A stretch of DNA of 64,000 nucleotides from Pseudolabrys sp. (GTDB lineage: Bacteria > Pseudomonadota > Alphaproteobacteria > Rhizobiales > Xanthobacteraceae), in contig JAFIGS010000017.1 of NCBI GenBank assembly GCA_017849615.1, positions 1 to 64,000 of the forward strand, given 5' to 3'. The notes under the pieces were generated by a model, which did no database searches, was not told the DNA's origin, and saw only the letters and a list, made by a program, of their open reading frames with translations. A program made the translations under genes and the position numbers. Shown here piece by piece: positions 624 through 31,782 of the stretch; position 1 is the first letter of the stretch, and every line of letters begins with the position of its first letter.

Positions 624-646
624 AATAATGGATTTTTGTATCCATT
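621..646 (+). promoter_or_regulatory. extended -10 promoter overlapped by a GntR-type operator (site 1)
   Basis: Bases 627-646 form a perfect inverted repeat, AATGGAT and ATCCATT with a 6-base spacer. On the other strand the spacer reads ACAAAA, matching ACAAAG and ACAAAC in the sites at 5175 and 16625. Directly upstream lies TGCAATAAT, an extended -10 hexamer one mismatch from consensus, so the operator overlaps the promoter and a bound regulator should repress. The ATG of the amidohydrolase gene is at 672. That the bound protein is the GntR regulator at 5286 is inferred. Confidence 0.6.
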
Positions 647-671
647 TCGCGAAAGCGGAGATAAGAAGCAC

Positions 672-2003
672 ATGTTCGACCTTGTGGTAACTAACGGCAT
701 GGTGGTGAGCGGCGTCAGCGTGGATCCTTGCCACGTCGCAGTGCAGAACGGACAGGTGGCCGCGCTGCTCGATCCTTCGTCTAGGCCTGAGGCGTTGACG
801 ATCATCGACGCCAGCGGACTTCTCGTCCTGCCCGGGCTCGTCGATGCCCATGTGCATTTCCGCGACCCCGGTCTGACGCACAAGGAAGATTTTGCCAGCG
901 GCAGCCGTGCCGCAGCTCTGGGGGGCGTCACGACCGTGATGGTGCAACCGACAGACAACCCGGTGACCACGACCGTCGAGCATTTCATCTCGAAGAAGGA
1001 ATCCGCCGGAGGACGCTGCGCCGTCGATTTTGCACTTCAAGCCGCGCTGGGACCGGACTTGAGCCACGTCACGGCGCTCGCCGACGCCGGCGCGGCATCC
1101 TTCGAGATTTTCCTCGGCCTGCTGCCCGATCCGGTCTGCATCCCCGGCAATGAGGCCTTGGCTGCGGCGATGATGGCGGTCCGTGACGTCGACGGCCTCG
1201 TCGGCGCAACGCCTTACGATGACGCCCTGGCCGCCGCCGCCGCGCGCGCGGCCGCCAAGCTGTCGGAAGATTGGGCTCGCTTCACCGCGAGCCTGCCTCC
1301 AGCCGTGGAGGCCGCCGGCATCGCCCGCGCCGTGCTCTGTCATCGGCTGGTGGGCGGCCGCATGCACATCAGGCAGGTCAGCACGGAACTGGGGCTGGCG
1401 GCACTGACGATGGCGGACGACGAGGTTACCGCCGAAGTAACGCCACACAATATTTCGCTTACCGAAGACACGCTGCTGCAACTGGGTGCCGTTGCCAAAG
1501 TCGTTCCGCCACTACGGCAAGTCACCGATGTCGCCGCCATGCAGGAGGCCTTGCGGGATGGTACGGTCGATATCGTTGCCACCGACCATGCGCCTCATAC
1601 ACGCGAAGAAAAATCCGCAGGCAAGAACGACCTCGGCAAGGCCCCCGGCGGGTTTCCCGGCGTTCAAACCATGTTGCCGGTTTTGCTCAAGCTCGTCGGC
1701 GACGGCGTGATCGGTTACCCGGATATCGTCCGCGTGGCCTGCGAGGCACCTGCCAGTATCTTTCGTCTCTCGGACCGGAAAGGTTCGGTTCGGCCCGGCG
1801 CCGATGCTGATCTGGTCCTAATCGATCCGGTAACGCCGATGACGATCCGCAACGAGGATCAGGCCAGCAAGGCGGGGCAGACGCCGTTCAACGGCATGAC
1901 CGCACCGGCGAGCCCGGTTCTGACGATGCTCCGCGGCGAAGTCATCGCCGAACGCGGTAAAATCGTGGGGAATCCTCGCGGGCGCTTTTTGGCGCCCGCC
2001 TGA
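672..2003 (+). CDS. dihydroorotase/allantoinase-like cyclic amidohydrolase with an altered metal site
   Basis: A 443-residue protein of the cyclic amidohydrolase (hydantoinase, allantoinase, dihydroorotase) family. It has the N-terminal HVHFRDPG motif (His60, His62), a GG.TT strand turn and ATDHAPHT with Asp305. The position of the carbamylated lysine is glutamate (SFEIFL, Glu145), the next histidine (HAEN in the family) is Thr180, and the HVS-type histidine is Gln235, so only HxH and the Asp remain of the first-shell ligands. The normal reaction is reversible opening of a cyclic ureide; here a mononuclear or non-catalytic site is possible. The ATG at 672 was preferred to an upstream in-frame codon because family homology starts there. 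It is transcribed alone behind operator site 1 and ends 8 bp from the convergent hydrolase gene. Confidence 0.8.
   Translation: MFDLVVTNGMVVSGVSVDPCHVAVQNGQVAALLDPSSRPEALTIIDASGLLVLPGLVDAHVHFRDPGLTHKEDFASGSRAAALGGVTTVMVQPTDNPVTTTVEHFISKKESAGGRCAVDFALQAALGPDLSHVTALADAGAASFEIFLGLLPDPVCIPGNEALAAAMMAVRDVDGLVGATPYDDALAAAAARAAAKLSEDWARFTASLPPAVEAAGIARAVLCHRLVGGRMHIRQVSTELGLAALTMADDEVTAEVTPHNISLTEDTLLQLGAVAKVVPPLRQVTDVAAMQEALRDGTVDIVATDHAPHTREEKSAGKNDLGKAPGGFPGVQTMLPVLLKLVGDGVIGYPDIVRVACEAPASIFRLSDRKGSVRPGADADLVLIDPVTPMTIRNEDQASKAGQTPFNGMTAPASPVLTMLRGEVIAERGKIVGNPRGRFLAPA
1978..1999. terminator. possible hairpin at convergent gene ends
   Basis: GCGGGCGC and GCGCCCGC form perfect 8-bp arms around a TTTTTG loop, overlapping the last codons of the amidohydrolase gene, with the convergent hydrolase ending at 2012. 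There is no T-tract after it on either strand, so a terminator role is only suggested by its position. Confidence 0.3.
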
Positions 2004-2011
2004 GCGTAAAG

Positions 2012-3223
2012 TCAGGCGCCGCACGCCAGAATCTCGGCGGCGCGCGCCATGACCACGCATCCGGCGACGATATCTTCGTCCTTGGTGTTCTCGGCAATGT
2101 CGTGACTGCGGCCGCCGATGCTCGGAATGAAGATCATGCCGGTTGGAATCTTCCGCGCCAGGAACATCGCATCGTGGCCGGCGCCGCTGACCATTCGCTC
2201 ATGACCATAGCCGACGTCCTGAGCAGCCTTCTCGAAGGTTTCGACGATACCGACGTCCATCGGCGTTGGCGTAATGCGCGTCGTGACATCAAGTGACATC
2301 CTGCTACCTGCCTTGTTGAGCGCAGCAATCTGCTCGCTCACGGCCACCTCGATACGGTCAAGCACGGTTTCGTCCGAATCGCGGAATTCGAGGCTAAGAC
2401 CCGCGCCGGACGGCACGACGTTGGCAGCCCCCGGCGTCGCCTCGATGCGACCGATATTCCAGACAGTTTCACCAGAGGATAGCTTCGGAAACACATCCAC
2501 CACGAAACTGCCGAACCGTAAAAGGGGCGTCAGTGCATCCTCGCGCATGTTCATCGGCGTCGTCCCGGCGTGATCGGCGCGGCCCTCACTGGTCACGGTC
2601 ATGCGGCGGATACCGGCCATGCTTGTGATCACCGCGACCTTATTGCCGGAGCTTTCCAGACGCGGCCCTTGCTCGATGTGGCCCTCGAGGAAGGCAATCT
2701 GTCGCTTGGGGTCCAGCTTGCGAGGCACCCCCGACAAGCGTGCGCGCGCGATGGCATCCGTGAGCTTACGCCCGTCGGTGGCGTGTGCCGCATCTAGGGC
2801 AGCGTCATCGATCGTCCCGATCATGAAACGGCTGCCGAGACACGGCAGATAAGTGCCTTCCTCGTCTTGAAAATTGATGGCATCGACGCCGAACGGCAGG
2901 TAGCCCGCCTCCTGCGCGGCGCGCGCGACCTCAAGACCGTAAATGACGCCGAGCGCACCGTCGAGCCAGCCGCCTTGCGGCACCGTATCCGAGTGCGAAC
3001 CGATAAGGACGGCCTTGTTGACGCCGGGCGCGATGCCATAGACTGTACCGAAGCGGTCCATCGATGCCTCGAGGCCAGCTTCTCGATAGCGTTCTGCGAT
3101 CCATTTGCGCGCCGCGATATCCTCATCGGAAAACGCGATGCGATCGACGCCAGTCTTGTATTGCCCGAATTTCGCCAGCGTCCGCAGATCTGCCAGCAAG
3201 CGTTCCGGTTTGATTGCAATCAT
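2012..3223 (-). CDS. Zn-dependent amidase, N-carbamoyl-L-amino-acid hydrolase/allantoate amidohydrolase family
   Basis: A 403-residue M20/HyuC-type amidohydrolase. Metal-site motifs are intact: GSHSDTVPQGG (His77, Asp79), LDGALG (Asp88), FQDEEGTYLPC (Asp120, Glu121, Glu122), LEGHIEQGP (His182), SGAGHDAMF and GGRSHDIAE (His near 374). The family removes the carbamoyl group from N-carbamoyl amino acids or ureido acids, giving the acid, CO2 and ammonia in the cytoplasm. It is the last gene of a minus-strand operon and overlaps the upstream aminotransferase by ATGA. A carbamoylase beside a cyclic amidohydrolase and an aminotransferase fits opening, decarbamoylation and deamination of a cyclic ureide. 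The exact substrate cannot be told from sequence. Confidence 0.88.
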   Translation of the reverse strand: MIAIKPERLLADLRTLAKFGQYKTGVDRIAFSDEDIAARKWIAERYREAGLEASMDRFGTVYGIAPGVNKAVLIGSHSDTVPQGGWLDGALGVIYGLEVARAAQEAGYLPFGVDAINFQDEEGTYLPCLGSRFMIGTIDDAALDAAHATDGRKLTDAIARARLSGVPRKLDPKRQIAFLEGHIEQGPRLESSGNKVAVITSMAGIRRMTVTSEGRADHAGTTPMNMREDALTPLLRFGSFVVDVFPKLSSGETVWNIGRIEATPGAANVVPSGAGLSLEFRDSDETVLDRIEVAVSEQIAALNKAGSRMSLDVTTRITPTPMDVGIVETFEKAAQDVGYGHERMVSGAGHDAMFLARKIPTGMIFIPSIGGRSHDIAENTKDEDIVAGCVVMARAAEILACGA

Positions 3224-4404
3224 GCGCGCGCGACCTTCTTCATTGTAGTCCGGTTCTCGAGGAAGTGCCGCAGGCGGCGCACGCCTTCCACGAGCCTCTG
3301 ATCCTCAATCGTATAGGCGATACGGACGTAACGGTCCGTGCCCGGCCCGAAAGTGCTGCCCGGCACCACCGCGACCGAAGCATCCACGAGCGCCGCCTTC
3401 GCAACTTCGAACGAGGTCATTCCCGCGGCGGATACATCCACCAGAGCATAAAACGCGCCGGCCGGAATGATCGGCAGATAGGACGTGCCCGCCAAAGCCC
3501 CTACGACAAGATCGCGGCGACGATGGAAGGTTGCGCGGAAGTCAGCCACGATCTGCTGATCGCCGAGCAAGGCGCCCTCGCCGGCCATTTGAGATGGCGT
3601 GGAGGCGCAGCTCGTCGTCGGCTCCTGCAGGCTCGCCGCGACGGCGGCTAGCGCGGGCGGACAGACAAGCCATCCGAGCCGCCAACCGGTCATCGCATAG
3701 CTTTTCGAGAAGCCGGAGACGATAAACACATTGTCATCGGCGCCGAATTCCGCCGCGGAGACATGTTCGCCGTCGAACACGATATCCTCATAAATCTCGT
3801 CGCTGACAAGATAAAGGCCGTGTTCGCGAACGAGTTCGACGATCCCCTGCATGAGGGCGCGAGGAAAAACTGCGCCGGTCGGATTGCCAGGCGTATTGAT
3901 CAGAATGGCCTTGGTCTTCGGCGTAATGAGCGACCGCAGTTCTGCGAGGTCAGGCAGAAAGCCGCGGCTTTCCGGCATGGCGTAACGAATGGGCGTGGCG
4001 CCGGCGAGATGGCAGATCGCTTCGTAGTTTGGCCAGCCCGGATCAGGGATGAGCACCTCGTCCCCGGCATCGAGCACCGCGAACATCGAGGAGAATAATC
4101 CGCCGATGGCGCCGGTCGTAATGACGATGCGATCGGCGGCAATGCCCTGCTTCAAACGGGAGGAACAGCGTTTAGCGACCAGCTCGCGCAGCGTCTTCAA
4201 CCCTGCATTCGGCGCGTATTTTGTCGCTCCGGCGCGCACGGCCCCGAAGGCACGTTCGATGATCGGCACGGGCGTCGCCGCATCAGGCTCGCCGACCTCC
4301 AGATGAATCACGTCCGGCATGGTTGCCGCAAGTGACATGATCTCGCGGATCGCCGAACGCGGCATGGACCCGGCGCGGCGTGACGGCTCACGGAGATTCG
4401 CCAT
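3220..4404 (-). CDS. class I/II PLP-dependent aminotransferase
   Basis: A 394-residue fold-type I aminotransferase of the aspartate/alanine aminotransferase group. Visible are the substrate-loop glycines (LEVGEP), the TPGNPTG motif (Asn174), SDEIYE (Asp202, Tyr205) and the Schiff-base lysine in GFSKSYAMTGWRLGW (Lys234). It would move an amino group from an amino acid to a 2-oxo acid in the cytoplasm. It lies 12 bp after the Asp/Glu-racemase-superfamily gene and overlaps the carbamoylase gene by 4 bp. It probably deaminates the amino acid released by that enzyme. Confidence 0.9.
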   Translation of the reverse strand: MANLREPSRRAGSMPRSAIREIMSLAATMPDVIHLEVGEPDAATPVPIIERAFGAVRAGATKYAPNAGLKTLRELVAKRCSSRLKQGIAADRIVITTGAIGGLFSSMFAVLDAGDEVLIPDPGWPNYEAICHLAGATPIRYAMPESRGFLPDLAELRSLITPKTKAILINTPGNPTGAVFPRALMQGIVELVREHGLYLVSDEIYEDIVFDGEHVSAAEFGADDNVFIVSGFSKSYAMTGWRLGWLVCPPALAAVAASLQEPTTSCASTPSQMAGEGALLGDQQIVADFRATFHRRRDLVVGALAGTSYLPIIPAGAFYALVDVSAAGMTSFEVAKAALVDASVAVVPGSTFGPGTDRYVRIAYTIEDQRLVEGVRRLRHFLENRTTMKKVARA

Positions 4405-4416
4405 TTCAGTCTTCCA

Positions 4417-5148
4417 TCAAACGGTGAACAGTCTGCCCAGTGAGGCAATGCGATCCTTCAAACCAAGTGTGCGCATCGCGCTCCACAGCAGCGCCTGATT
4501 GGAGGTGATAACCGGAAGTCCGGTTGCGCGCTCGATTTCTTCGATAACTCCGAACGTCGGCAGGTCGGTGGCAAGAAGCACAATCGCTTCCGAATTCTTG
4601 ATATTGAGCTTTTCGACGAACGGCATGAGCCGCGCCCGATCGACCGTCGGCACCGCGGCCGTGGCAACGATATCGAGCGTCGCGTCATCAACGACAGTGT
4701 AGTTGCGCTGTTCGAAGAAAGGGCGAGCGACGGCATGGATGGCGGCTGGATACGGCGTGCCCAGTGCAAATCGGCGAATGCCGAGAGCGTTCATCGCATC
4801 GCGCAGCGACGTCCAGGCCGAGATCGCGGCAACGCCGGTGTCGTTGCCGATCTTGGCGGTCGCCGCCTCGTTCCAGCCCTGCTCCATGATGAAGGTCGTC
4901 ACCATGTCACAATAGGCGACAACGTTCACGCCCGTGGCGGCGATGGTTTCGACCGCCTTGCCGACCTGCGCCTCCATCCGATGCACCAGCGCCGGGGTGA
5001 GGTCGCCCTTGACCAGTAGGCGGGTCGCATACAGCGCCAAATCGGCCGGCATAACCGACCAGAACTCCGGTTCGATGACCGAATTATTGGCTGGCACCAG
5101 AAGGCCAATTCGGCCCCGGCGCCCGTAGACCGGCGCGGCGTTTGTCAT
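4417..5148 (-). CDS. Asp/Glu racemase superfamily protein, maleate isomerase/arylmalonate decarboxylase-like
   Basis: A 243-residue two-lobed protein close to maleate cis-trans isomerase and arylmalonate decarboxylase. The family signature LPVITSNQALLWSAMR lies near residues 211-226. The first catalytic cysteine is present (VVAYC, Cys80), but the second, normally in a C-T-N-L-R-T motif, is Ala193 (LLATDLPTF). Two-cysteine racemisation or isomerisation is therefore unlikely; arylmalonate decarboxylase also uses one cysteine but keeps the other one. It is the first gene of the operon running to 2012, divergent from the GntR gene with operator site 2 between them. The product could be an isomerase variant or a decarboxylase. 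Confidence 0.8.
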   Translation of the reverse strand: MTNAAPVYGRRGRIGLLVPANNSVIEPEFWSVMPADLALYATRLLVKGDLTPALVHRMEAQVGKAVETIAATGVNVVAYCDMVTTFIMEQGWNEAATAKIGNDTGVAAISAWTSLRDAMNALGIRRFALGTPYPAAIHAVARPFFEQRNYTVVDDATLDIVATAAVPTVDRARLMPFVEKLNIKNSEAIVLLATDLPTFGVIEEIERATGLPVITSNQALLWSAMRTLGLKDRIASLGRLFTV

Positions 5149-5174
5149 GGGGAGACTTTGTCAAAAACAACAGG

Positions 5175-5194
5175 ATTGGATACAAAGATACAAT
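5175..5194. promoter_or_regulatory. GntR-type operator (site 2) in the divergent promoter
   Basis: ATTGGAT and ATACAAT around the spacer ACAAAG form an inverted repeat with one mismatch. It is the same 20-bp site as at 627 and 16625, including the spacer. The right arm contains TACAAT, a near-consensus -10 hexamer for the GntR gene. It lies between the starts of the racemase-superfamily gene (5148) and GntR (5286), so autoregulation and control of the divergent operon are likely. Confidence 0.6.
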
Positions 5195-5285
5195 TTTGTG
5201 CCGACGCGGGTCAAGAGCCGTGCTGTGCGTCAAAGTTGACAAGTCCGCAATCCCCGCCCTAATCGACCCCCGGAGGCGAACAATC

Positions 5286-6026
5286 GTGTTGACCCCACCA
5301 CCGTCCGCGCAACAGCTGGCGTACATCCATCTTCAGGACCGAATTGTCTCAGGCGCACTGCCCGGCGGCACCCGGCTCAAGCCGGAGCCGATCGCGCAGC
5401 AGCTCGGCATCAGCCGCATGCCGGTCCGCGAAGCCATTCGGCAGCTCAATGCCGAAGGGTACGTCACGATCATGCCGAACCGCGGTGCCGTCGTGACAAA
5501 CCGCACGCCAGAAGATGTTATTGAGCTGTTCGAAATGCGCGCCGTGCTTGAGGGGCTCGCGGCGCGCATTGCGGCCAAGGTCGCCACCGCAGATGAACTT
5601 GACGATCTTGAGTCGTTCAACACCGGCCTACTCCGTCTGGGCCAGGACCATGTCGCCTGGGTCGAACGTCACGACCAGTTCCATGACCAGCTCTGTCTAT
5701 TAAGCCGGCGCGCGCGTCTCTGCGACGAAGCCCGCCGCCTGCGGTTCGCGGTGCGCCCGTATCTTCGACTTTACACGCGATCCCATGCTGAGTTCGAACT
5801 GAAAGGCCATGAGCACGAACGCCTTATCGAGGAGATTCGCAGTGGGAACGGCAAGCGCGCCGAAGCGGTGACGCGCGCTCATGTGATGGCAAACGCGCAC
5901 AGCATTGCCGAATGTCTGCGCGTGGCCCTCGCAGAAGCGCTCAGCGCCCCCGTCGCGAAGCCGACGCCCGAACGTGCTGTCGAGAAGACGGCGGCGACAC
6001 GCAAAAGGAAGTCGGCCGCCGCCTGA
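5286..6026 (+). CDS. GntR family transcriptional regulator (FadR/FCD subfamily)
   Basis: A 246-residue regulator. The N-terminal winged helix-turn-helix contains PIAQQLGISRMPVREAIRQL, followed by an FCD ligand domain with the usual metal-type residues (HDQFHDQ, SHAEFELKGHEHERL, RAHVMANAHS). The GTG at 5286 was chosen because GGAGG lies 9 bases upstream; an earlier in-frame codon at 5142 would overlap the operator and add 48 residues with no homology. It faces the 4417-5148 gene across operator site 2 and ends 4 bp from the convergent dehydrogenase gene. It probably represses the whole 0.6-17 kb block and is released by a pathway acid. Confidence 0.88.
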   Translation: MLTPPPSAQQLAYIHLQDRIVSGALPGGTRLKPEPIAQQLGISRMPVREAIRQLNAEGYVTIMPNRGAVVTNRTPEDVIELFEMRAVLEGLAARIAAKVATADELDDLESFNTGLLRLGQDHVAWVERHDQFHDQLCLLSRRARLCDEARRLRFAVRPYLRLYTRSHAEFELKGHEHERLIEEIRSGNGKRAEAVTRAHVMANAHSIAECLRVALAEALSAPVAKPTPERAVEKTAATRKRKSAAA

Positions 6027-6030
6027 CCTC

Positions 6031-7038
6031 TCAATCGTGGTCGCCGCCAATATCGACCATGACGCCGATGTTGCGATCGCGTGCCCGCTTCTCGATGTGC
6101 TGCGCCGTGACCAGATCCTGGATCGGCACGCCGATCGACTTATAGAATGTGATTTCGTTGGCTGATTTGCGGCCCTCGGCGCGGCCGCCGACCAAATCTG
6201 CGATCTCCGGCACTTTCTCCAGATCGATGATTCCCTCCTTCGCCGCTATGACGAAGTCCCCCGCATGCGCAAGACAATCGCTGCGACTATCGATCACGCC
6301 GCAGGTGATGCGTCGCATCACCTCGCTATCCACTTCACGCGACGTTGGCTCATACGCGCCACAGGAGGCTACGAACGTACCAGGCTTGAGCCATCGCCCC
6401 TGGACCACGGGATCCTCGGATGTTGTCGCCGCGACAACGACGTCGGCGGCGCCAACGGCTTCGGCCGCAGATTCGACATAGCGCATGTCGGCCGGGATAC
6501 GCCCGCCAATGCGCCGCAGCCGATCGATCATGACCTCCGCGCGCGAGCGCGTCCGGCTAGATACTAGCACTGTCGTGAGATCGAGCGCCGTCGCCAGCGC
6601 CTCTACCTGGTTGGTAGCAACCCTTCCACCACCGATAATCGTCATTACCTTGCTGTCCTTGCGCGCCAGATAGCGTGCCGCCAGAGCGGTGCCAGCGCCG
6701 GTGCGCAAGTCCGTCAGATAGCCCGCTTCCATGACAGTGTGCGGCGCGCCTGTCTCGCCGTTGAACAGGGCTACCAAAGCCGACATACGGGGCACGCCGC
6801 GCTTGGTGTTGTCGTAGAAGTCCGACACAACCTTGATGCCGTACCCCCCGCCGTTCTTGAGGAAACAAGGATTGAAGATGGCGACGCCAGGCGGCTCGTC
6901 GGACGTGGCAAAACTGCGGAGCCCATCGACGGAACGTCCGCTGGCGAGAAGCGTGAAAGCCTCGCCCTGTATGTCGATGGCGTCAGCCATGTCCAGCACG
7001 GAACGGCAGTCCGCTTCGGTGAGAATTCTCAGTTTCAT
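6031..7038 (-). CDS. ornithine cyclodeaminase/mu-crystallin family NAD(P)-dependent enzyme
   Basis: A 335-residue protein with the family signature GIKVVSDFYDN, TVMEAGYLTDLRTGAGTALAARYLAR and a Rossmann IIGGGRVATNQVEAL. Members include ornithine cyclodeaminase, alanine dehydrogenase, ketimine reductases and lysine cyclodeaminase, all acting on amino or imino acids in the cytoplasm. It is the last gene of the long minus-strand operon and overlaps the molybdenum hydroxylase gene by ATGA. Reduction of a cyclic imine or oxidative deamination would fit downstream of heterocycle opening. The substrate is not predictable. Confidence 0.87.
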   Translation of the reverse strand: MKLRILTEADCRSVLDMADAIDIQGEAFTLLASGRSVDGLRSFATSDEPPGVAIFNPCFLKNGGGYGIKVVSDFYDNTKRGVPRMSALVALFNGETGAPHTVMEAGYLTDLRTGAGTALAARYLARKDSKVMTIIGGGRVATNQVEALATALDLTTVLVSSRTRSRAEVMIDRLRRIGGRIPADMRYVESAAEAVGAADVVVAATTSEDPVVQGRWLKPGTFVASCGAYEPTSREVDSEVMRRITCGVIDSRSDCLAHAGDFVIAAKEGIIDLEKVPEIADLVGGRAEGRKSANEITFYKSIGVPIQDLVTAQHIEKRARDRNIGVMVDIGGDHD

Positions 7039-9422: not shown

Positions 9423-9916
9423 GGCTTCTGCTCCGTTCCGTGAGCCGCAGCCATCACGGCATCGACGATTGCATGATAGCCGGTGCAGCGGCAGTAGTTC
9501 GCTGATATCGCCTCCCGCACTTCCTCGCGCGTCGGCTCCGGCACGCTGCGCAGGAGATCGGCCGCGGTGACGAGCATGCCCGGCGTGCAGAATCCGCATT
9601 GCAGCGCATTGCGCGCCAGAAACGTCTGCTGCAGTACCGCGATCTCGCCGCTGTCGGAAAGGCCCTCCACGGTATCGACAACGGCGCCATCGGCCTGGAC
9701 GGCCAGCATCAGGCAGGAACGCACGATGTCCCCATCGACAAGGACCGTACAGGCGCCGCAAACGCCGTGCTCACATCCGACATGCGTGCCGGTCAGTCCA
9801 AGTTCGTCGCGGAGGAAATCGGCGAGATGCTGACGCGGCGAAACGCTGCGTGTCTCCGCCGCGCCGTTCACCGTCAGGCGGACGACGACTTCAGGTTCGT
9901 CAGGAGAAACGGTCAT
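9419..9916 (-). CDS. molybdenum hydroxylase 2Fe-2S subunit (CoxS family)
   Basis: A 165-residue protein with both expected clusters: plant-type ferredoxin cysteines Cys48, Cys53, Cys56 and Cys68 (GCEHGVCGACTV), and the helical cluster Cys107, Cys110, Cys142 and Cys144 (QCGFCTPG, YCRCTGYH). It passes electrons from the Mo site to FAD. ATGA overlap with the FAD subunit and GTGA overlap with the large subunit show translational coupling. The 15-20 residue N-terminal extension is slightly longer than usual. Confidence 0.95.
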   Translation of the reverse strand: MTVSPDEPEVVVRLTVNGAAETRSVSPRQHLADFLRDELGLTGTHVGCEHGVCGACTVLVDGDIVRSCLMLAVQADGAVVDTVEGLSDSGEIAVLQQTFLARNALQCGFCTPGMLVTAADLLRSVPEPTREEVREAISANYCRCTGYHAIVDAVMAAAHGTEQKP

Positions 9917-10749
9917 GGCTTGAGCCTCGCGAAGGCGCGCTGAGCCAATGTCATCACGATCGGCAGCTTGAAGGCCGCAGCTTCGTCATCGGCAAAATAG
10001 ACGTTCAACTCGTCTTTCAGGGCGGCCTTGGGCGCGGCGGCGAACCCCTCCCCGCCAAATGCAGCCTCCAGCGCCGCCGAGCGCCAGGGCGTCGGCCCGA
10101 TGCCGAAGATCACCGCCCGGTTTTCCGGCATACCATCATGCGCCGGCGCGAGAATGATGCCGGCCTGTGCGAAATCGCCCTTGCGGCGCGCAAATTCGAT
10201 GAATGCATGCGGAAGGGCAGTTGGCCGCTTCGGAATACGAACGGCCACCAGAATTTCGTGTTCCTCAAGCGCCGTCGACATCAGACCATCGAAGAAATCG
10301 TCAGTCGCGATTTCGCGTTCTCTCGAGGTAGATTGGGCCACGATGCGAGCACCGAGCGCGAGACATGTCGCCGGTGTTTCCGCAGACGGATCGGCAAGCG
10401 CGAGGCTGCCGCCGATGGTGCCGCGGTTGCGGATGGCGTGATGCGCGACATGGCCGATCGCCTCGGCCAGCAGCGGCATCTGCGCCGCGATCAACGGCGA
10501 GCGCAGGATGTCATTGTAACGCGTCAGCGCGCCAATGGTCAGCGTGTCTCCGGCGTCTCGGATACCTTTGAGATCGTCGATCCGATTGATGTCGATGACC
10601 CGCTCGGGGCGAGCCATCCGCATCGCCATAAGCGGCATCAGACTCTGCCCGCCGGCCAGGATGCGAGCGGCGCCCTGATACTCGCTCAGAAGAGCGAGCG
10701 CCTCGGGAAGCGTGCCTGGCCTATGGTAACTGAACGACGTCGGCTTCAT
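9913..10749 (-). CDS. molybdenum hydroxylase FAD subunit (CoxM family)
   Basis: A 278-residue FAD-binding protein with the two flavin loops ILAGGQSLMPLM and NRGTIGGSLA, and a C-terminal CO-dehydrogenase flavoprotein domain. It receives electrons from the 2Fe-2S subunit and passes them to a soluble or quinone acceptor. Gene order M-S-L matches CO-dehydrogenase-like enzymes. It lies 8 bp after the amidohydrolase gene and overlaps the S gene by 4 bp, so the hydroxylase and amidohydrolase are made together. Confidence 0.94.
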   Translation of the reverse strand: MKPTSFSYHRPGTLPEALALLSEYQGAARILAGGQSLMPLMAMRMARPERVIDINRIDDLKGIRDAGDTLTIGALTRYNDILRSPLIAAQMPLLAEAIGHVAHHAIRNRGTIGGSLALADPSAETPATCLALGARIVAQSTSREREIATDDFFDGLMSTALEEHEILVAVRIPKRPTALPHAFIEFARRKGDFAQAGIILAPAHDGMPENRAVIFGIGPTPWRSAALEAAFGGEGFAAAPKAALKDELNVYFADDEAAAFKLPIVMTLAQRAFARLKP

Positions 10750-10757
10750 GACTGCCG

Positions 10758-12305
10758 TCAGCGCCCCACGTAGCGGTGGGTACCGACATCCTCGGCCCAG
10801 GTCTTGCGATGCGCCTGGAGAAGATAAGGCAACAGGTCCTTCAGACGCGCTTGTACGCCCTCGAGGTCCTTCATCAGCCCCTTCGATAGCTCGGCCGCTT
10901 CGGCATAAAGCGCGGCTTCGTCGATCGATACGATTTTGCGGTTGTCGACCACGACCCGGCCGTCAACCACCACAGTCTCGACGCTGCGCCCCGCTTCCGT
11001 GAAAACGAGCTGACGAACCGCGCTGTTGAGCGGCACGAAGGAAGGATCATTGAGATCGACGATGCTGAAATCGGCGGCGAAGTCAACCTTGATCTCGCCC
11101 AGCATATCGCCCATCTGCGCGCCGCGCGCTCCGGCTTTGGTAGCTGCCGCCATGGCGTCGGCCGCCGTCGGCGGGCCGGGCTCAGGGTCGGTCACCGCCG
11201 CCAGCGAGGCGAACATCTTCATCGACTGGAACATGTTCTGGCAGTCGCTGCAGCTGCAGTTGTCGCAGCCGAGACCGACATGCACGCCGGCGTCCATGTA
11301 TTCGCGGATCGGCGCAATGCCGCTGCGGGTCTTGAGGTTGCCGACCGGATTGAGCACTACGTTGGCACCCCTGTCCGCGATCATCTTGATCTCATCCGGC
11401 ACCATCCAAACGCTGTGCGCCATGCTCATGCGCTCATTGAGCAGCCCGCAACGCTCGAGGTAACGGACCAGCGAGCCTTGATCCTGGGTATGGGTCTGGC
11501 GCGCGATCAGCGTCATCGCCTTGGATTCGTAAACGTGGGTATAGACCGGCAGGTTCTCCGCCTTGGAGAAGTCGGCCAGTTCACGCAGCAGCGACTCGCT
11601 ACAACGCTCGGGACTCGACGGCCCGAGACCCCAGCTGATGCGGCGATGCTTGCCCTTGTACCGGTCGTACAGCCCGCGCACCGTATCGGTCAGGCTCTTG
11701 CTACCCTTGAACGGTTCTACGGCGCCGGACAGACCTCTGCGCATCGCCTCCGGCACCACCTCCTCCCAGAACGGGATCGACTTCGCGCCGGGAATGTCGG
11801 CGATCTGCAGGGCGAAAACGCACCGAATGCCGACATCGTCGTAAGCCTGCAGGACCGTATCGACGTGCTCCTCGTCATAGGGAAACACGGTGGCAAGATC
11901 CTGCACCGTGGTGATGCCGGACCGGAGGCACTCGACGGCGCCCAGCAGTGTGCGGGCGCGCATCTCCCCCTTGCTGCGCTTGGGGAATGCCGGTGGCAGC
12001 GCGCTCATCACCCACAATTCGAGAGGGATGGTTTCGAAGCACCCCTTCAGCAGCACGTCGTGCGAGTGATAATGCGCGTTGACAAACCCGGGTATGATCA
12101 GCTTGCCCTTGGCGTCGATCGTGCGCGAGACCTGCCTGCCCTTCAATTCAGGCACCGCCTCACCGCGTTTGATCGCCTCGCCAATTCCTGACCGGACGGC
12201 CGCAAACTTGCCGTCGATGCAGAGAATATCGGCAATCGCCGGGTGATGCACATCGCCATCGTGGTCGTAGACCTGACCACCGGCAATAAGAAGGGTCTCG
12301 GACAC
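10758..12305 (-). CDS. TrzA/AtzA-type amidohydrolase (deaminase family)
   Basis: A 515-residue cytoplasmic amidohydrolase. It starts at GTG 12305, with GGAGG six bases upstream. The metal site is complete: NAHYHSH (His78, His80), VYTHVYE (His257), MAHSVW (His297) and GCDNCSC (Asp348). The family hydrolyses C-N bonds of ring substituents (guanine, melamine, S-adenosylhomocysteine, 8-oxopurines). The catalytic Asp sits in an unusual cysteine cluster, Cys347, Cys350, Cys352 and Cys355, where relatives usually have small residues and Asn. It lies between an M24 hydrolase gene and the hydroxylase genes, so removal of an amino group from a heterocycle before or after hydroxylation is plausible. Confidence 0.88.
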   Translation of the reverse strand: MSETLLIAGGQVYDHDGDVHHPAIADILCIDGKFAAVRSGIGEAIKRGEAVPELKGRQVSRTIDAKGKLIIPGFVNAHYHSHDVLLKGCFETIPLELWVMSALPPAFPKRSKGEMRARTLLGAVECLRSGITTVQDLATVFPYDEEHVDTVLQAYDDVGIRCVFALQIADIPGAKSIPFWEEVVPEAMRRGLSGAVEPFKGSKSLTDTVRGLYDRYKGKHRRISWGLGPSSPERCSESLLRELADFSKAENLPVYTHVYESKAMTLIARQTHTQDQGSLVRYLERCGLLNERMSMAHSVWMVPDEIKMIADRGANVVLNPVGNLKTRSGIAPIREYMDAGVHVGLGCDNCSCSDCQNMFQSMKMFASLAAVTDPEPGPPTAADAMAAATKAGARGAQMGDMLGEIKVDFAADFSIVDLNDPSFVPLNSAVRQLVFTEAGRSVETVVVDGRVVVDNRKIVSIDEAALYAEAAELSKGLMKDLEGVQARLKDLLPYLLQAHRKTWAEDVGTHRYVGR

Positions 12306-12331
12306 GTATCGCCTCCGCTTTATCTTGAGCC

Positions 12332-13510
12332 CTACGGCTTCACTTCGAAAAGCTTCTGTTCGACGTTCGTCAGGATCTCGTAGCCCGTCTCCGTGACAAG
12401 CACCGTCTCGCTGAGCCCGACGCCGTACTGAGCATACTCGAACACCGCGGGCAGGAAGTGAAAGACCATGCCGGGCTGCAACGGCCGCTTCTCGCCGCCG
12501 CGCAGCATCATGGTGCGCGCTTCGCTCCAATCCGGCGGGAGCGCAATGCCGATGGAGTAACCCGCCTTGTGGCGGAACTTGTCGCCGTAACCGCCGTCCT
12601 CGATCACCTTGCGCGCCGCTTGGTCGACCAGCTCGGCCGGGTTGCCCGGCTTCATCTCCTTGAGGCCCGCCTCGATCGAGCGGCGGCACAGGTCCGTGAG
12701 ATCTTGGAACAGCTTCGGCGCCGCACCGACATAGCCAATGCGCAAGGTCGCCGCGTGGTAGCGCTTGATTGAAGCGCCGACCTCGAAATAGACGGCGTCG
12801 CCGGTCTTCACCGGATATCCTTCAGCCATTGCATGCGCCATGGTGTGACGGACTCCGGCATTGATGAGCGGCGGAAGGCCCGGATACTCCGAGTGCATCT
12901 TGAACAGGCCCTGATAGGCGGCGGCCATCAGGTCGTCTTCGGTGATGCCGTTGCGCAGCGCGTCGATGGCCGAACGCATGCCTTCGGACGCCGCGTTGCC
13001 TGCTTGACGGCTGAACTCCTGCTCCGCCGGCGATTTGATGAGACGCAGGTTCTCGACGATCATCGAACCGTCGACAAATTTCGCCTGCGGCAGGCGCGCC
13101 TGCATCTTCTCGTAGTCGTCGATGGTCAGATACCAGGCCGACTTGTCGATGCCGATGCGCGCTTTCGCCCAGCCGCGCTCGTTGATCACCCGGATGGTCG
13201 CGTCGTTGTAGTTCTCGGTGTCCGGATAAAGTTCGCGATCCGGAATCCAAGACGTTCCCTGAAGCGTCGTTTTCTCGATCAGTCGCGTAAAGTGGACGGG
13301 CTCGCCCTCGACCGGCACGAAAAGCGCCATGAACGAGTAGTAGCCGACCGTCCGGAAACCAGAGAGGTAATAGATGTTCTCAAGGTGATTGACCATGAGC
13401 ACGTCGATCCCGCGCTTGGCCATCTCGGCCTGCACCCCCTTCACGCGACGACGATATTCGTCCACCGTGAAGTGCAATCCCATATTCTCCTTGGAAATTT
13501 CAGCCGGCAT
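12332..13510 (-). CDS. M24 family hydrolase, creatinase/ectoine-hydrolase-like (pita-bread fold)
   Basis: A 392-residue protein with the creatinase N-terminal domain (VDEYRRRVKGVQAEM) and a C-terminal pita-bread domain. The dinuclear metal ligands of true prolidases are mostly replaced: the two aspartates read as FEVGASIKRYHAATLR, the HGxG histidine is lost in AGYSIGIALPPDW, and GMVFHFLP lacks the Glu. That pattern matches the metal-independent creatinase and DoeA group, which cleave amidine or amide C-N bonds. The ATG at 13510 follows an AAGGAGAAG ribosome site. It is the fourth gene of the TRAP-led operon, and probably acts on an imported amide. Confidence 0.83.
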   Translation of the reverse strand: MPAEISKENMGLHFTVDEYRRRVKGVQAEMAKRGIDVLMVNHLENIYYLSGFRTVGYYSFMALFVPVEGEPVHFTRLIEKTTLQGTSWIPDRELYPDTENYNDATIRVINERGWAKARIGIDKSAWYLTIDDYEKMQARLPQAKFVDGSMIVENLRLIKSPAEQEFSRQAGNAASEGMRSAIDALRNGITEDDLMAAAYQGLFKMHSEYPGLPPLINAGVRHTMAHAMAEGYPVKTGDAVYFEVGASIKRYHAATLRIGYVGAAPKLFQDLTDLCRRSIEAGLKEMKPGNPAELVDQAARKVIEDGGYGDKFRHKAGYSIGIALPPDWSEARTMMLRGGEKRPLQPGMVFHFLPAVFEYAQYGVGLSETVLVTETGYEILTNVEQKLFEVKP

Positions 13511-13524
13511 TCTTCTTCTCCTTC

Positions 13525-14808
13525 TTAGTATCCAAAGTATCGCGGCAGCGCGAGCGGAAGCGCCGGTACGTAAGTGATGAGGAACAGCACGCCGATCAGT
13601 ACCAACAGCATCGGCCAGATGGCGACGATTAGCCGATCCAGTTTGACTTTCCCGATCTCGGACGCGAGGTAGAGCGCGACGCCAACGGGCGGCGTGGCCA
13701 TGCCGATCACCAGGTTGATGCACATGATGACGCCGAACAGCATCGGATCGATGCCGGCGGTCGTCACGACCGGCAGCAGCACCGGGGTCAGGATGATGAT
13801 CGCGGCCGTGGTATCCATCAGGGCGCCCACGACCAGCAGCAGCAGATTGACCAGCAGAAGCAGCAGATACGGGTTGCTCGTCAGATGGATCAGGCTGGCA
13901 ATGAGTTGCTGCGGCACGGCCTCTGACGCCAGCAGATCGGAAAAGATTCGAGCGGCGCCGACGATCAACATGATGAAGCTGGTGACAATGCCGGTGTTCA
14001 GCAGGCTCTCATAAAGATCCTTCAGCTTGAGCTTACGGAACATCAGGATGCCGGCCAGCAACGCGTAAAAAACGGCGACCGCCGCCGATTCGGTCGGCGT
14101 CATCACGCCGGCGAAGATGCCGCCAAGGATGATAAAGGGCATGAGCAGCGCAAGGACGGCGTCCTTGCCGCGGGCCAGAACCTCGCACACCGAGAATTTA
14201 TGAGCCGCCTGTTCGCCGCGGAGCCGCGCACGCAGATAGACATAAGCCATCAGCGAGGTCGCGATGAGAATGCCCGGCACCACGCCGGCTAAAAACAGGC
14301 CGCCGATCGAGGTGCCCGCGGCGACTGCATAGATTACCATCGTGATGCTGGGCGGGATGATCGGTCCGATCAGCGAGGCCGCACACGTCAGCGCCGTCGC
14401 ATAGTCGCGCGGATAACCGCGCCGCTCCATCGCCGGCACCATGATCCGGCCGATAGCGGCAACCTGTGCCAAAGCCGAGCCCGTATCCATGGCGAGCATG
14501 GTATTCGACACCACGGTGGCGTGGCCGAGACCGCCGCGGATATGGCTGACCAGCGAGTTGGCGAAGGCGATGAGACGCTCGGCGATGCCGCCGCGATTCA
14601 TGAGTTCGCCAGCCAGAATGAAGAACGGGATCGCGAGCAATGGAAACGAGTCCATGCCGTTGATCATGCTGCTCGGAATGATTATCCACGGCGCGGATGC
14701 GCCGATGACTACAGTTCCAAGCACCGCCGCCAGGCCGATCGCGAACACGACCGGAACGCCGAGCAGCATGAGCACGAGCATTCCGCCGAAAAGCGTAAGA
14801 GCAAGCAT
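13525..14808 (-). CDS. TRAP transporter large permease (DctM family)
   Basis: A 427-residue, very hydrophobic protein with about a dozen membrane segments. Typical sequences include DSFPLLAIPFFILAGELMNRGGIAERL, of which only the core is shown, and GVMTPTESAAVAV. With DctQ and DctP it forms a Na+-driven importer in the inner membrane. It lies 9 bp after the small permease gene and 14 bp before the M24 gene, so uptake and hydrolysis are co-expressed. Confidence 0.95.
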   Translation of the reverse strand: MLALTLFGGMLVLMLLGVPVVFAIGLAAVLGTVVIGASAPWIIIPSSMINGMDSFPLLAIPFFILAGELMNRGGIAERLIAFANSLVSHIRGGLGHATVVSNTMLAMDTGSALAQVAAIGRIMVPAMERRGYPRDYATALTCAASLIGPIIPPSITMVIYAVAAGTSIGGLFLAGVVPGILIATSLMAYVYLRARLRGEQAAHKFSVCEVLARGKDAVLALLMPFIILGGIFAGVMTPTESAAVAVFYALLAGILMFRKLKLKDLYESLLNTGIVTSFIMLIVGAARIFSDLLASEAVPQQLIASLIHLTSNPYLLLLLVNLLLLVVGALMDTTAAIIILTPVLLPVVTTAGIDPMLFGVIMCINLVIGMATPPVGVALYLASEIGKVKLDRLIVAIWPMLLVLIGVLFLITYVPALPLALPRYFGY

Positions 14809-14817
14809 GGCTGCGCC

Positions 14818-15309
14818 TCAGACCTGGAGTTCGCTGTCGTGCGATATGGCGATCGGGCCGCGAACCATGACGACCAGAACGTGATAGATCATCAGCGCGG
14901 CGCCGACGGGTACGGCGGCGTAGGGAAGCTGCATCGACACCCCAAGCGCCACGGTGCTTTGGAACGACACACGCTGGAAAAGGATGAAGCCGTAATAGAC
15001 ACAGATCGCCAGGAAGAAGAGCACACCGGCCTGCCCCACCAGGACGATCGCGGCGCGATGTCTGGGCTTGAGGAAGTCGATGAGAAATTCTGCCGCGATG
15101 TGCGCGCCTTTGCGGACGGCCAGACCACCGCCAAGCCAAGACATCCAGAGCAGCGTGAAGCGTGCGGCTTCCTCGATCCACGGCAAGGCATCATTCATGA
15201 TGTAGCGGGTGAACACGCCGGTCAGCACGACGACGCACATCAGCGCGGTCAGGCCTGCGACGATCCAGCTGGTGATGGCAACAATTCCGCTATCCAGGGC
15301 GCGAAGCAT
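14818..15309 (-). CDS. TRAP transporter small permease (DctQ family)
   Basis: A 163-residue protein with four predicted membrane helices and the usual ITSWIVAGLTALMC first helix, RYIMNDALPWIEEAAR loop and WMSWLGGGLAVRKGAH. The ATG at 15309 is chosen because DctQ homology begins there; a longer frame reaches 15381 with no supporting motif. The ribosome site is weak, which may keep this subunit low. It sits between the DctP and DctM genes. Confidence 0.9.
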   Translation of the reverse strand: MLRALDSGIVAITSWIVAGLTALMCVVVLTGVFTRYIMNDALPWIEEAARFTLLWMSWLGGGLAVRKGAHIAAEFLIDFLKPRHRAAIVLVGQAGVLFFLAICVYYGFILFQRVSFQSTVALGVSMQLPYAAVPVGAALMIYHVLVVMVRGPIAISHDSELQV

Positions 15310-15390
15310 CGGAAAATCCCGAATGTGAATGCAGATTGGAGGTAAGGACCGGAGAGGATTCTCGCCCCTCCGGCCTCGCATCGTTCCCGA

Positions 15391-16419
15391 TTAGTATGAA
15401 CGCAGGGACTTTTCGGCGTCGGCGACCGCCTTGAGGGCACTGTCGATCCACTCATCGCCGACTTCCCTGCGCACCAGCGCCAGAGCCGGAGGCTGACCGG
15501 CCTTGCGGAACAGGTCGAATTCGGCCGGCGTTGGCTCGTAGATTTGGATGCCCGCATCCTTCAGCTTCTTGAGCGAGGCGCGCTCGAGAAGGAACGCCTG
15601 CGAACGGCCGATGGTGGTTGCAAGGCCGGCGCTTTCAATTACGACGCCGCGAAGATCGGCCGGCAGCGCCTGGAAGAAGCCCTCATTGATCATCGCGGTA
15701 TGCACGCTGTAGAGGTGCTTGTTCAGCGTGAGATACTTCTGCTGTTCGAAGAACTTCATGCTGTAGAACAGTCCCGGCGGGTTCTCCATCCCATCGACGA
15801 CCTTCTGCTGAAGCGCCGTGTAGACTTCGGTCCAAGACACCGGCGTCGGGCTAGCGCCGAGCGCCTTCACCATCGCCATGTGGATGGCGTTCTCGCCCGT
15901 ACGGATCTTCAGGCCGACGAGATCGGTGGGCGTCTTGATCGGTTTCTTAGAGTTGAACAGGCTGCGGAAGCCGCTTTCAATATGCCCTATTATCCGCACT
16001 CCTGTTTGTTTCAGGAATGCCTCGTTATACTTCTTGCCCCAAGGACCATCCAGCGTGGCCCAAGCCACTTCCGACGACGAGAACAGGAACGGTGTGCCAA
16101 GCACAAGCGCGGGCTTGAAGAAGAACGGCTGGGTGATTTCGCTTACCAGCAGCATCTGGTTGATGCCATTCTGCACGCGCTCGAGCTGCTGACGCTCGTT
16201 GCCGCCGGCGTTATTGCCGAGAATGCGCACTTCAATCTTGCCGGCGGAGCGCGCTTCAACGCTCTCCTTGAAGACGAGTGCCCAGGCGTGCTGACCCGAA
16301 TCGAGCGCTTCCGGCATGCCGTGGCTCAGGCGGATGACGTGCTCGGCTGCGGCCGCCGGCTGGACGAACACGGCGGCGGCAACGGCGCCGGCCGCCAGGA
16401 CATTCTTCATGAACGACAT
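15391..16419 (-). CDS. TRAP transporter substrate-binding protein (DctP family)
   Basis: A 342-residue periplasmic protein with a Sec signal (MSFMKNVLAAGAVAAA, cleavage near VQPAAAA-E). DctP core motifs follow: IRLSHG, IEVRILGNNAGGNERQQLERVQ, GLKIRTGENAIHMAMVKALGASPTPVSWTEVY in part, and LQQKVVDGMENPP. The conserved arginine in KIRTGENAI normally binds the ligand carboxylate, so the substrate is an organic acid. It is the first gene of the nine-gene operon, behind operator site 3. Confidence 0.95.
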   Translation of the reverse strand: MSFMKNVLAAGAVAAAVFVQPAAAAEHVIRLSHGMPEALDSGQHAWALVFKESVEARSAGKIEVRILGNNAGGNERQQLERVQNGINQMLLVSEITQPFFFKPALVLGTPFLFSSSEVAWATLDGPWGKKYNEAFLKQTGVRIIGHIESGFRSLFNSKKPIKTPTDLVGLKIRTGENAIHMAMVKALGASPTPVSWTEVYTALQQKVVDGMENPPGLFYSMKFFEQQKYLTLNKHLYSVHTAMINEGFFQALPADLRGVVIESAGLATTIGRSQAFLLERASLKKLKDAGIQIYEPTPAEFDLFRKAGQPPALALVRREVGDEWIDSALKAVADAEKSLRSY

Positions 16420-16805
16420 GGACTTGATCCTTCGCTCTGATGGGGGGGATGGGTGCAGGGCTTTGGCGTGAAAGACCGAAAGAAGCCGTCAAGTCTGGTG
16501 TTCTCTAATGCCGCACCATGGGCATGACATCCTGCTCGAAAGCCGGCGAGAGGCGGAAAGCCGCCAGGCGCCTGGAATTTCACGGTGCAGACTGCAGGGT
16601 TCACTTGACCGTTGACCGCGCTAAAGTGGATACAAACATCCAATTAACGGCTCTAGTAATGCACACGATCAATCGGGAGGCAACACGTCGACGGCGCTAA
16701 AATTTGTTCACCGCAGCAAACCGAAGTTTCGAACCGCACAAACCGCTCACGCTTTAAGCGGTTGTCTAAAACTGAACTACACGCGCAACGCAGAAGGAAA
16801 TTTCA
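16420..16805. promoter_or_regulatory. divergent control region between dctP and ridA
   Basis: No gene is seen in these 386 bp; a short forward frame at 16518-16700 has no homology. The region holds two overlapping TTGACC -35-like boxes (16605 and 16612) followed by GATACA within operator site 3 (16625-16644), so a promoter toward ridA would be blocked by a bound regulator. Confidence 0.5.
16625..16644. promoter_or_regulatory. GntR-type operator (site 3)
   Basis: AGTGGAT and ATCCAAT around the spacer ACAAAC give an inverted repeat with one mismatch. It is the third copy of the 20-bp site at 627 and 5175. It lies between the divergent dctP and ridA genes, placing both under the proposed GntR regulator. 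Confidence 0.6.
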
Positions 16806-17201
16806 ATGACCCTCAAAAACCACGATCCTGCCGGCATTCACGCCCCACTCGGCTCCTATACACATGCGGTCGAAATTGGAGGCGGAATGCGCCTGCTTAG
16901 CGTGTCTGGCCAGGTCGGCCTTCGCCCTGACGGCTCGCTGGCCGAAGGCATCGAAGGTCAGCTGCGACAAACGTGGGCGAATATTGCTGCCATTTTGAGC
17001 GCGGCTGACATGACGCTGCGCGACATCGTCAAGATCACCACGATTGTCGTACGCACTGAGGACTTGAAGGTTCACGGCAGGATCCGCGCCGAGGTGCTCG
17101 GCGAGCACCGCGCCGCGGCAACAGGCTTTTGCGTCACGCAACTTGCGACGCCCGACATGCTTTGTGAAATCGAAGTGACGGCGGCCGGGCCGCGTCGCTG
17201 A
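16806..17201 (+). CDS. RidA family enamine/imine deaminase
   Basis: A 131-residue RidA/YjgF/UK114 protein. It has the family core (RLLSVSGQVGLRPDGSL), the DIVKITTIVV strand and a C-terminal CEIEVTAAG with its conserved Glu; the substrate arginine is probably in GEHRAAATGF. RidA proteins hydrolyse reactive enamines and imines made by PLP enzymes or by amidases. The ATG at 16806 follows GAAGGA by seven bases. It is divergent from the TRAP operon and would mop up intermediates of the same pathway. Confidence 0.87.
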   Translation: MTLKNHDPAGIHAPLGSYTHAVEIGGGMRLLSVSGQVGLRPDGSLAEGIEGQLRQTWANIAAILSAADMTLRDIVKITTIVVRTEDLKVHGRIRAEVLGEHRAAATGFCVTQLATPDMLCEIEVTAAGPRR

Positions 17202-18384: not shown

Positions 18385-18388
18385 AACC

Positions 18389-21009: not shown

Positions 21010-21062
21010 AGTTGCTCCCGGGCTTACACTTCTTCGAATTGATGGCGATTGATGACCACGAC

Positions 21063-21839: not shown

Positions 21840-21851
21840 TATCGGCTCTCC

Positions 21852-22670: not shown

Positions 22671-22740
22671 GACAGCTCTCTCATCATTCACAGAAAGGCG
22701 GGCCGCCGCAGCGTCGTGCGGCAGCGGCACCCACCGATGC

Positions 22741-23736: not shown

Positions 23737-23961
23737 GACGTTCCTCTACGATCGGTTCTGGAAGCCTTCGATCAGGATAGTTGTCATCGCACTTTCATGA
23801 CCAATCAGAATTCAAAATAGAGTTGTATTCATTTTGGTGATTGGACGAAGACCAGTATCGTGCCTTTCAATAGGGCGATCTGGACAAGGTTGCGCCTAAG
23901 TTTTTGGCTTGCAATTTTTCGGCACGCACACAGCATCGCCTTTTCTCTCCGGGCAACAACG
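23737..23961. promoter_or_regulatory. LysR-controlled divergent promoter region
   Basis: This AT-rich gap separates the binding-protein and LysR genes. Around 23813-23836 there is AAAAT and ATTTT as an inverted pair about 12 bases apart, in the form of a LysR-type T-N11-A site. Placement supports regulation of both directions; the exact site is tentative. Confidence 0.35.
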
Positions 23962-31780: not shown

Positions 31781-31782
31781 GC

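Follow-up and report, generated by a model that had tools for sequence, protein, structure and literature searches.

The window analyzed here, a 64,000-nucleotide stretch of Pseudolabrys sp. (contig JAFIGS010000017.1), carries near its start a block of catabolic genes in which a short operator-like sequence occurs three times (Table 1). Judged from gene order, these sites stand at the head of units that total 15 genes, as the sequence-only reading of this DNA had proposed: a single amidohydrolase; a unit of EutA-like, aminotransferase and M20 genes with gntR divergent; and a nine-gene TRAP unit (DctP, DctQ, DctM, M24, TRZ/ATZ, three molybdenum-hydroxylase subunits and EutC-like) with ridA divergent. 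The block from 0.6 to 17.2 kb is interpreted as a local catabolic regulon under the FCD-type GntR repressor encoded at 5286–6026, to which we assign a rough probability of 0.85 on the sequence comparisons given below. All tests were sequence-based and used the source genome (G000; 4,396,131 bases in 35 contigs) together with 198 relatives, 199 genomes in all, many of them metagenome-assembled genomes or drafts; genome searches sampled the larger groups. The reversed motif, or shuffles, provided the chance control for motif scans.

The three 20-mers previously claimed were all found at their coordinates. Their arms had been quoted as ATTGGAT/ATCCAAT, which holds to within one base at each of sites 2 and 3; site 1 is two bases off, and its arms AATGGAT/ATCCATT pair perfectly with each other. 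Read on one strand, the sequence common to the three sites is TGGATACAAANATMCA. An exact search for TGGATACA-N3-ATMCA in the 4.4-Mb own genome returned three matches, which are the three named sites. The form TGGATACAAANATNCA gave the same three as exact matches and two at 2 mismatches (reversed control, also two), and the broader TGGATMCANNNATMCA gave the same three exactly, with three 1-mismatch matches on other contigs versus one for the control. The own genome thus held no surplus of unrelated exact matches, the stray genome-wide hits of which the sequence-only reading had warned.

Chance similarity of promoter DNA was weighed against these counts. Loose scans of the window were only weakly significant, a point in favour of such an explanation: the quoted arms with up to 3 mismatches matched 4 times (shuffle mean 1.46; 6 of 100 shuffles reached 4), and the core with up to 2 mismatches matched 3 times (shuffle mean 0.64; 3 of 100 reached 3). 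The strength of the finding lies in the exactness of the sites and in their shared "spacer". Base composition predicts about 0.0009 exact cores TGGATACANNNATMCA in the window and about 0.06 genome-wide; three were seen, all in one block and conserved in relatives. The core did not occur once when the three upstream regions were base-shuffled 20,001 times. The exactness of all three sites is far beyond chance, and the probability left to coincidence is negligible.

The operator is better read as an 8-bp core of the FadR/VanR type (TGGAT+ACA) with a third half-site 3 nt further on. The core TGGATACA would consist of the head-to-head half-sites TGGAT and ATACA, with the central AT common to both, and the third half-site, ATMCA, would follow on one side after 3 nt, in the orientation of the second half-site and 8 bp from it. 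An offset test with TGGATACA alone in 23 non-overlapping pieces (459,835 bases) found 33 cores against 2 copies of the reversed 8-mer. ATMCA stood at +3 perfectly in 19 of the 33 and with at most 1 mismatch in 26, and no perfect ATMCA was found at the other right-hand offsets from 0 to 16. On the left side, TGKAT was perfect at 3 nt in 4 cores (at most 1 mismatch in 9) and at 11 nt in one. Around the 8-bp core, half-sites thus tend to recur with a phase of 8 bp. In the window, the layout of the operator is a core plus one third half-site at each of the three sites.

The sequence-only reading had described a palindrome with 7-base arms around an asymmetric 6-bp spacer, which would let one dimer grip the outer arms of the 20 bp. 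We consider this unlikely, even with complementary arms and with TGGAT-N6-ATMCA recurring in many of the relatives whose loci were retrieved. The spacer is itself constrained: almost every listed site combines ACA with the left arm, and this ACA has the look of the core's second half-site. At three places in the loci of other regulator homologues the core becomes palindromic, TGGATCCA, and the third half-site is still at +3 (two perfect, one with one mismatch). In the part available of the survey of FadR-subfamily sites by Suvorova, Korostelev and Gelfand 2015 (PMC4494728), the boxes GT and AC are 2-3 nt apart, a spacing that fits the 8-bp core and not the 10-nt gap between TGG and CCA. The core and third half-site resemble those sites further in the FCD domain of the regulator, in boxes 2 nt apart, in single sites serving divergons, and in the additional boxes that the same account places 7–12 nt from the centre, a range that includes ATMCA at 7.5–11.5 nt. 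By the FadR-subfamily box rule, the right box AC and the 2-nt spacing fit, with GG in the left box where GT is usual (here TGG, there TGT). The additional boxes described in the available text of PMC4494728 are weaker, whereas the third half-site of the window matches as well as the core halves and is fixed at +3 nt in 8-bp phase.

The product of 5286–6026 matched PF00392 (55.1 bits) and PF07729 (65.2 bits), both above cut-off. Matches at E<=1e-30 occurred in 7 of the 199 genomes: the own genome, G012, G095, G052, G005, G016 and G064. A set of 20 homologues (37–100% identity; 8 at E<=1e-30, then 5, 2 and 4 at E<=1e-38, plus the locus L076) was scanned between positions -350 and +60 relative to the match start, a site being allowed at most 2 mismatches. 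Thirteen of the 20 had such a site upstream, 12 of them at -51 to -122 and that of G551 at -222; one of the others had a 3-mismatch site and six had 4–5 mismatches. In two of these six, G524 and G016, a site lies before the M20b gene that precedes gntR. Among 3000 random 410-bp pieces, taken as the clean null, none reached 2 mismatches and 60 reached 3. The hexapeptide SRMPVR was invariant in the 12 of the 20 homologues that were aligned; the remainder were excluded because of stops in the reference or were not supplied.

It is also conceivable that a different regulator of this genome uses the sites, for instance one of the window's FCD regulators at 34.3 or 46.8 kb, and that gntR is a mere neighbour. 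The own genome does contain 16 further matches to the regulator (E<=0.001). Eleven of these 16 paralogues were scanned, and none reached even 3 mismatches upstream. Moreover, the homologues of G318, G064, G478 and G415 have an upstream site with no recognizable pathway block in the surrounding 15–20 kb. As had been claimed, the operator is tied to one GntR regulator, here of the FCD type (13 of 20 homologues versus 0 of 11 paralogues), and the rival assignment appears very improbable.

Conservation in relatives follows the same association. Exact TGGATACAAANATNCA occurs nine times in the 199 genomes: three times each in G000 and G012 and once each in G095, G052 and G171. Eight of the nine, among them the three of the own genome, lie on the same contig as a regulator homologue; the ninth belongs to G171, whose 1.3-Mb genome lacks any regulator match. 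A search of genome contigs for named relatives by the regulator only returned none, and alignment of the M24 hydrolase gave four loci: Rhizobium sp. Q54 (L073; G012), Bradyrhizobiaceae FeB_22 (L074; G095), Xanthobacteraceae RYN_493 (L075; G052) and betaproteobacterium FW602_bin.15 (L076). G012 and G095 have the complete 15-gene block in unchanged order and keep all three sites, one G095 site being one base off TGGATMCANNNATMCA; their regulators are 80% and 70% identical, respectively. The best-conserved 20 columns of each intergenic region fall on the operator (operator 3, 20/20; operator 2, 17/20; operator 1, 18/20), against overall conservation of 23%, 35% and 21% for the same regions, and the 20/20-column stretch at operator 3 covers the core. 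The M24 hydrolase (E<=1e-90) is found in 4 of the 199 genomes, the own genome, G012, G052 and G095, which are those with exact sites on the regulator's contig. Three of the seven genomes with a regulator homologue (G005, G016 and G064) have no M24 match at that threshold, and G016 carries two 1-mismatch sites besides its homologue. Lack of conservation upstream of orthologous operons had been named as a result that would count against a shared operator; the sites are conserved there, though the betaproteobacterium keeps one only.

Several observations weigh against a single conserved regulon of this form. For five of the 20 homologues, no good site was found either upstream or ahead of a short unit: G423 has a 3-mismatch site only; G005 has one 2-mismatch site about 530 bp away; G235 has none upstream, but four 1-mismatch sites within 20 kb; and G1000 and the second copy in G052 have no site in 350 bp. 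Across seven genomes, 2 of 18 exact TGGATMCANNNATMCA matches lie off the regulator's contig (G524 contig C6 and G052 contig C125). The 33 cores of the offset test are not independent, 9 of them and 8 of the 19 perfect ones coming from the window, G012 and G095. In the betaproteobacterium one site with at most 2 mismatches is promoter-placed, between a second TRZ amidohydrolase and gntR, and the TRAP unit and the amidohydrolase there have none at that threshold. With up to 2 mismatches allowed, its genome matches TGGATACANNNATCCA 25 times (reversed control, 3), including two 1-mismatch matches elsewhere; the 2-mismatch threshold is therefore not specific in this organism. To these points are added the lack of promoter calls at two sites and the distance of the gntR promoter-like pair from operator 2, described below.

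In the betaproteobacterial block (L076 4366–20454 and L088 2069–3400; proteins 49–82% identical, M24 82%), 13 of the 15 genes have a counterpart in position; the exceptions are the 2Fe-2S and FAD subunits, where an unmatched frame stands instead. Horizontal transfer of the block is a possibility.

In relatives the regulon looks wider, with M20b, acyl-CoA-ligase and NMT1-ABC genes apparently headed by the operator. In the rearranged block of G052, sites with at most 2 mismatches stand before M24 (two), in the M20b/AMP ligase gap, before the EutA-like gene (two) and in the amidohydrolase/gntR gap. In that of G524 they stand before the EutA-like gene, in the AMP ligase/M20b gap, before the NMT1-ABC genes (C12:18150, behind ADH) and in the ridA/dctP gap; gntR follows M20b, ADH lies behind ridA, and one chance-like match falls inside the ligase gene. 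A 2-mismatch site is also present in the M20b/AMP ligase gap of G095. On a G524 contig without the regulator, an exact core (L124 5439–5454) was observed about 50 bp before a second TRAP operon, possibly a remote member of the regulon. The window's own M20b, acyl-CoA-ligase and NMT1-ABC genes, in the 17–24 kb block, have no operator at their heads.

Table 1. Features of the block, with coordinates in the window and strand.
Feature	Position	Strand	Remarks
Operator 1	627..646	-	AATGGATACAAAAATCCATT; core TGGATACA 637-644 on minus; third half-site ATCCA 629-633
Operator 2	5175..5194	+	ATTGGATACAAAGATACAAT; core TGGATACA 5177-5184; third half-site ATACA 5188-5192
Operator 3	16625..16644	+	AGTGGATACAAACATCCAAT; core TGGATACA 16627-16634; third half-site ATCCA 16638-16642
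Sigma-70-like promoter of EutA-like unit	5185..5214	-	TTGACC-18-TATCTT; consensus scan; -10 inside operator 2
Putative gntR promoter	5236..5264	+	TTGACA-17-CTAATC; by eye, not called by consensus scan
Putative ridA promoter	16605..16634	+	TTGACC-18-GATACA; by eye, not scan-called; -10 inside operator 3
Putative dctP promoter	16654..16683	-	TTGCCT-18-TTACTA; by eye, not scan-called
Hydantoinase/dihydroorotase-like amidohydrolase	672..2003	+	likely ATG at 672
M20 carbamoylase/allantoate-amidohydrolase-like enzyme	2012..3223	-	TIGR01879 above cut-off
Pyridoxal phosphate (PLP) aminotransferase, class I/II	3220..4404	-	family matches
EutA / arylmalonate decarboxylase / maleate isomerase family protein	4417..5148	-	first of three genes
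GntR-family regulator with FCD domain	5286..6026	+	family matches
Ornithine cyclodeaminase / EutC-like	6031..7038	-	family matches
Molybdenum hydroxylase (xanthine dehydrogenase family) large subunit	7035..9419	-	start approximate
Molybdenum hydroxylase 2Fe-2S subunit	9419..9916	-	family match
Molybdenum hydroxylase FAD subunit	9913..10749	-	family matches
TRZ/ATZ-type amidohydrolase	10758..12305	-	family matches
M24 hydrolase	12332..13510	-	nearest solved relative by sequence, ectoine hydrolase DoeA
TRAP large permease DctM	13525..14808	-	family matches
TRAP small permease DctQ	14818..15309	-	family matches
TRAP substrate-binding protein DctP	15391..16419	-	first of nine genes
RidA-family protein	16806..17201	+	family matches

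The operators lie among promoter-like sequences. Overlap with a -10-like hexamer had been claimed at two sites; at site 2 it was supported by consensus scan, and at site 3 it involves hexamers picked by eye, the scan having called no promoter at sites 1 and 3. The promoter spacing of the EutA-like unit is kept in G012 and not in G095. That of the putative gntR, ridA and dctP promoters is equal in three genomes, with CAAATC in the gntR promoter of G095. Operator 3 ends 9 nt downstream of the putative dctP -10. Since the gntR promoter-like pair is clear of operator 2, beginning about 40 bp beyond it, direct control of gntR by this operator is doubtful, and autoregulation is uncertain.

In the predicted mechanism, the FCD-type GntR repressor, presumably as a dimer, would bind the operators. 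Occupancy of operator 2 would cover the -10 of the EutA-like unit, and occupancy of operator 3 would cover that of ridA just downstream of the TRAP-unit -10, which would allow a single site to close the two divergent promoters; the ATG of the amidohydrolase comes 25 bp after operator 1. A pathway substrate or intermediate acting as inducer would bind the FCD domain, the DNA would be released, and the transporter and enzymes, within the presumed operon limits, would be induced together. The regulator might instead activate its targets, or do both, for which we see a small but real chance: the conserved -35-like hexamer of gntR follows operator 2 at a distance of about 40 bp, which would leave an activator a suitable position, and the FCD regulator CitO is an activator according to the part of its account available. 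The overlap of operators 2 and 3 with -10-like hexamers, and the position of operator 3 behind that of dctP as well, are usual for repression. The simplest model is that the structural genes are repressed.

The longest frame of the first amidohydrolase begins at TTG 636, inside operator 1, and ATG 672 is the likelier start. Alignment of this protein to L-hydantoinase 1gkr shows the HVH and DH motifs kept, a Glu at the position of a 1gkr Lys, which we take to be the carboxylated Lys, and no His where the VHAEN and LHVSN motifs have theirs. All six homologues aligned have the same Glu. The metal centre is likely altered.

The families of the block suggest a coherent order, from family knowledge: TRAP import, molybdenum-dependent hydroxylation, hydrolysis by amidohydrolases and the ectoine-hydrolase-like enzyme, carbamoyl removal, transamination and imine clean-up. 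The earlier designation of the EutA-like gene as a racemase was not borne out; its product belongs to the arylmalonate decarboxylase / maleate isomerase family (PF17645; PDB matches to both). Among the best 25 NCBIfam families considered per protein, those above cut-off were broad models only (TIGR01879 for M20, TIGR00857 for the amidohydrolase, and TRAP subfamilies), and no narrow pathway model reached its cut-off. Of the proposal of a single heterocycle pathway, co-regulation is well supported and the enzyme families fit "heterocycle"; the chemistry is inferred from family membership. M24 identity in three relatives is 76–93%.

Ectoine and hydroxyectoine utilization clusters contain EutA, EutC and DoeA with a TRAP transporter and are controlled by a MocR-type regulator. 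The block is similar in that homologues of EutA, EutC and DoeA adjoin a TRAP transporter, and differs in the added molybdenum hydroxylase, two amidohydrolases and carbamoylase-like enzyme and in its FCD-type regulator. An ectoine cluster was rejected as the identity of the block; the scores were far below cut-offs (EutA 83.7 of 318, EutC 171.5 of 471.65 and DoeA 228.5 of 613 bits). A literature search on the gene combination returned none with 5 of 6 terms and, at 4 of 6, ectoine-side MocR, ectoine and Ruegeria genome topics by title. A search on the motif letters listed 15 of 109 papers, none of which, going by title, concerned a GntR operator.

By sequence, the nearest solved relative of the regulator is 6z74, Atu1419 of Agrobacterium fabrum (71.8 bits only). 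In the available text of PMC7797058, Atu1419 binds ATGTATACAT; over 8 bp its site and the window core are one base apart (TGTATACA / TGGATACA). That text also describes an SR-PVREA helix with a DNA-reading Arg, palindromes over -10 boxes and repression, features that recur in the window (repression as a prediction), and two differences: a tetramer able to loop DNA between two palindromes, and a role in hydroxycinnamate degradation. The portion available makes no mention of a third half-site. NanR of Escherichia coli, as described in the available part of PMC8012715, is likewise a GntR repressor, binding cooperatively to an operator whose several half-sites are closely spaced at a fixed phase. 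It differs in its direct repeats (GGTATA)3 and a 32-residue N-terminal extension. A NanR-type repeat operator was rejected for the window, where the core half-sites are inverted and the GntR domain match starts at residue 12.

Beyond the block, a run of M20b, AMP ligase, ADH and NMT1-type ABC genes (17233–24870) lies beside a divergent LysR gene (23860–24870), without the operator; homologues of this run (35–58% identical) lie behind an operator in G052, G524, G016 (M20b) and, weakly, G095. A second catabolic region (26121–47514) encodes hydantoinase A/B (30119–33867), an Asp/Glu racemase (36273–37004), a frame with both molybdenum-binding and FAD domains (38217–41597) and two other FCD-GntR proteins (34262–34927 and 46792–47514). 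No core match at up to 2 mismatches was found within this region.

The kind of switch described here is already known, and the block is an added example of it. A bolder proposal, which we put forward only tentatively, is that the ectoine-hydrolase-like M24 enzyme, molybdenum hydroxylase, two amidohydrolases and carbamoylase form a mobile module of Alpha- and Betaproteobacteria that would degrade a novel bacterial nutrient, a nitrogen heterocycle, under an FCD repressor with an 8-bp-phased, graded and cooperative operator. Through several species, the block illustrates the additional half-sites to which Suvorova et al. drew attention, leaving their experimental test for later. It also provides a portable, sequence-based definition of a regulon (operator, regulator and 15 genes) as a route to the substrate: a compound that frees the operator of this repressor should be either the substrate or an intermediate early in the pathway.

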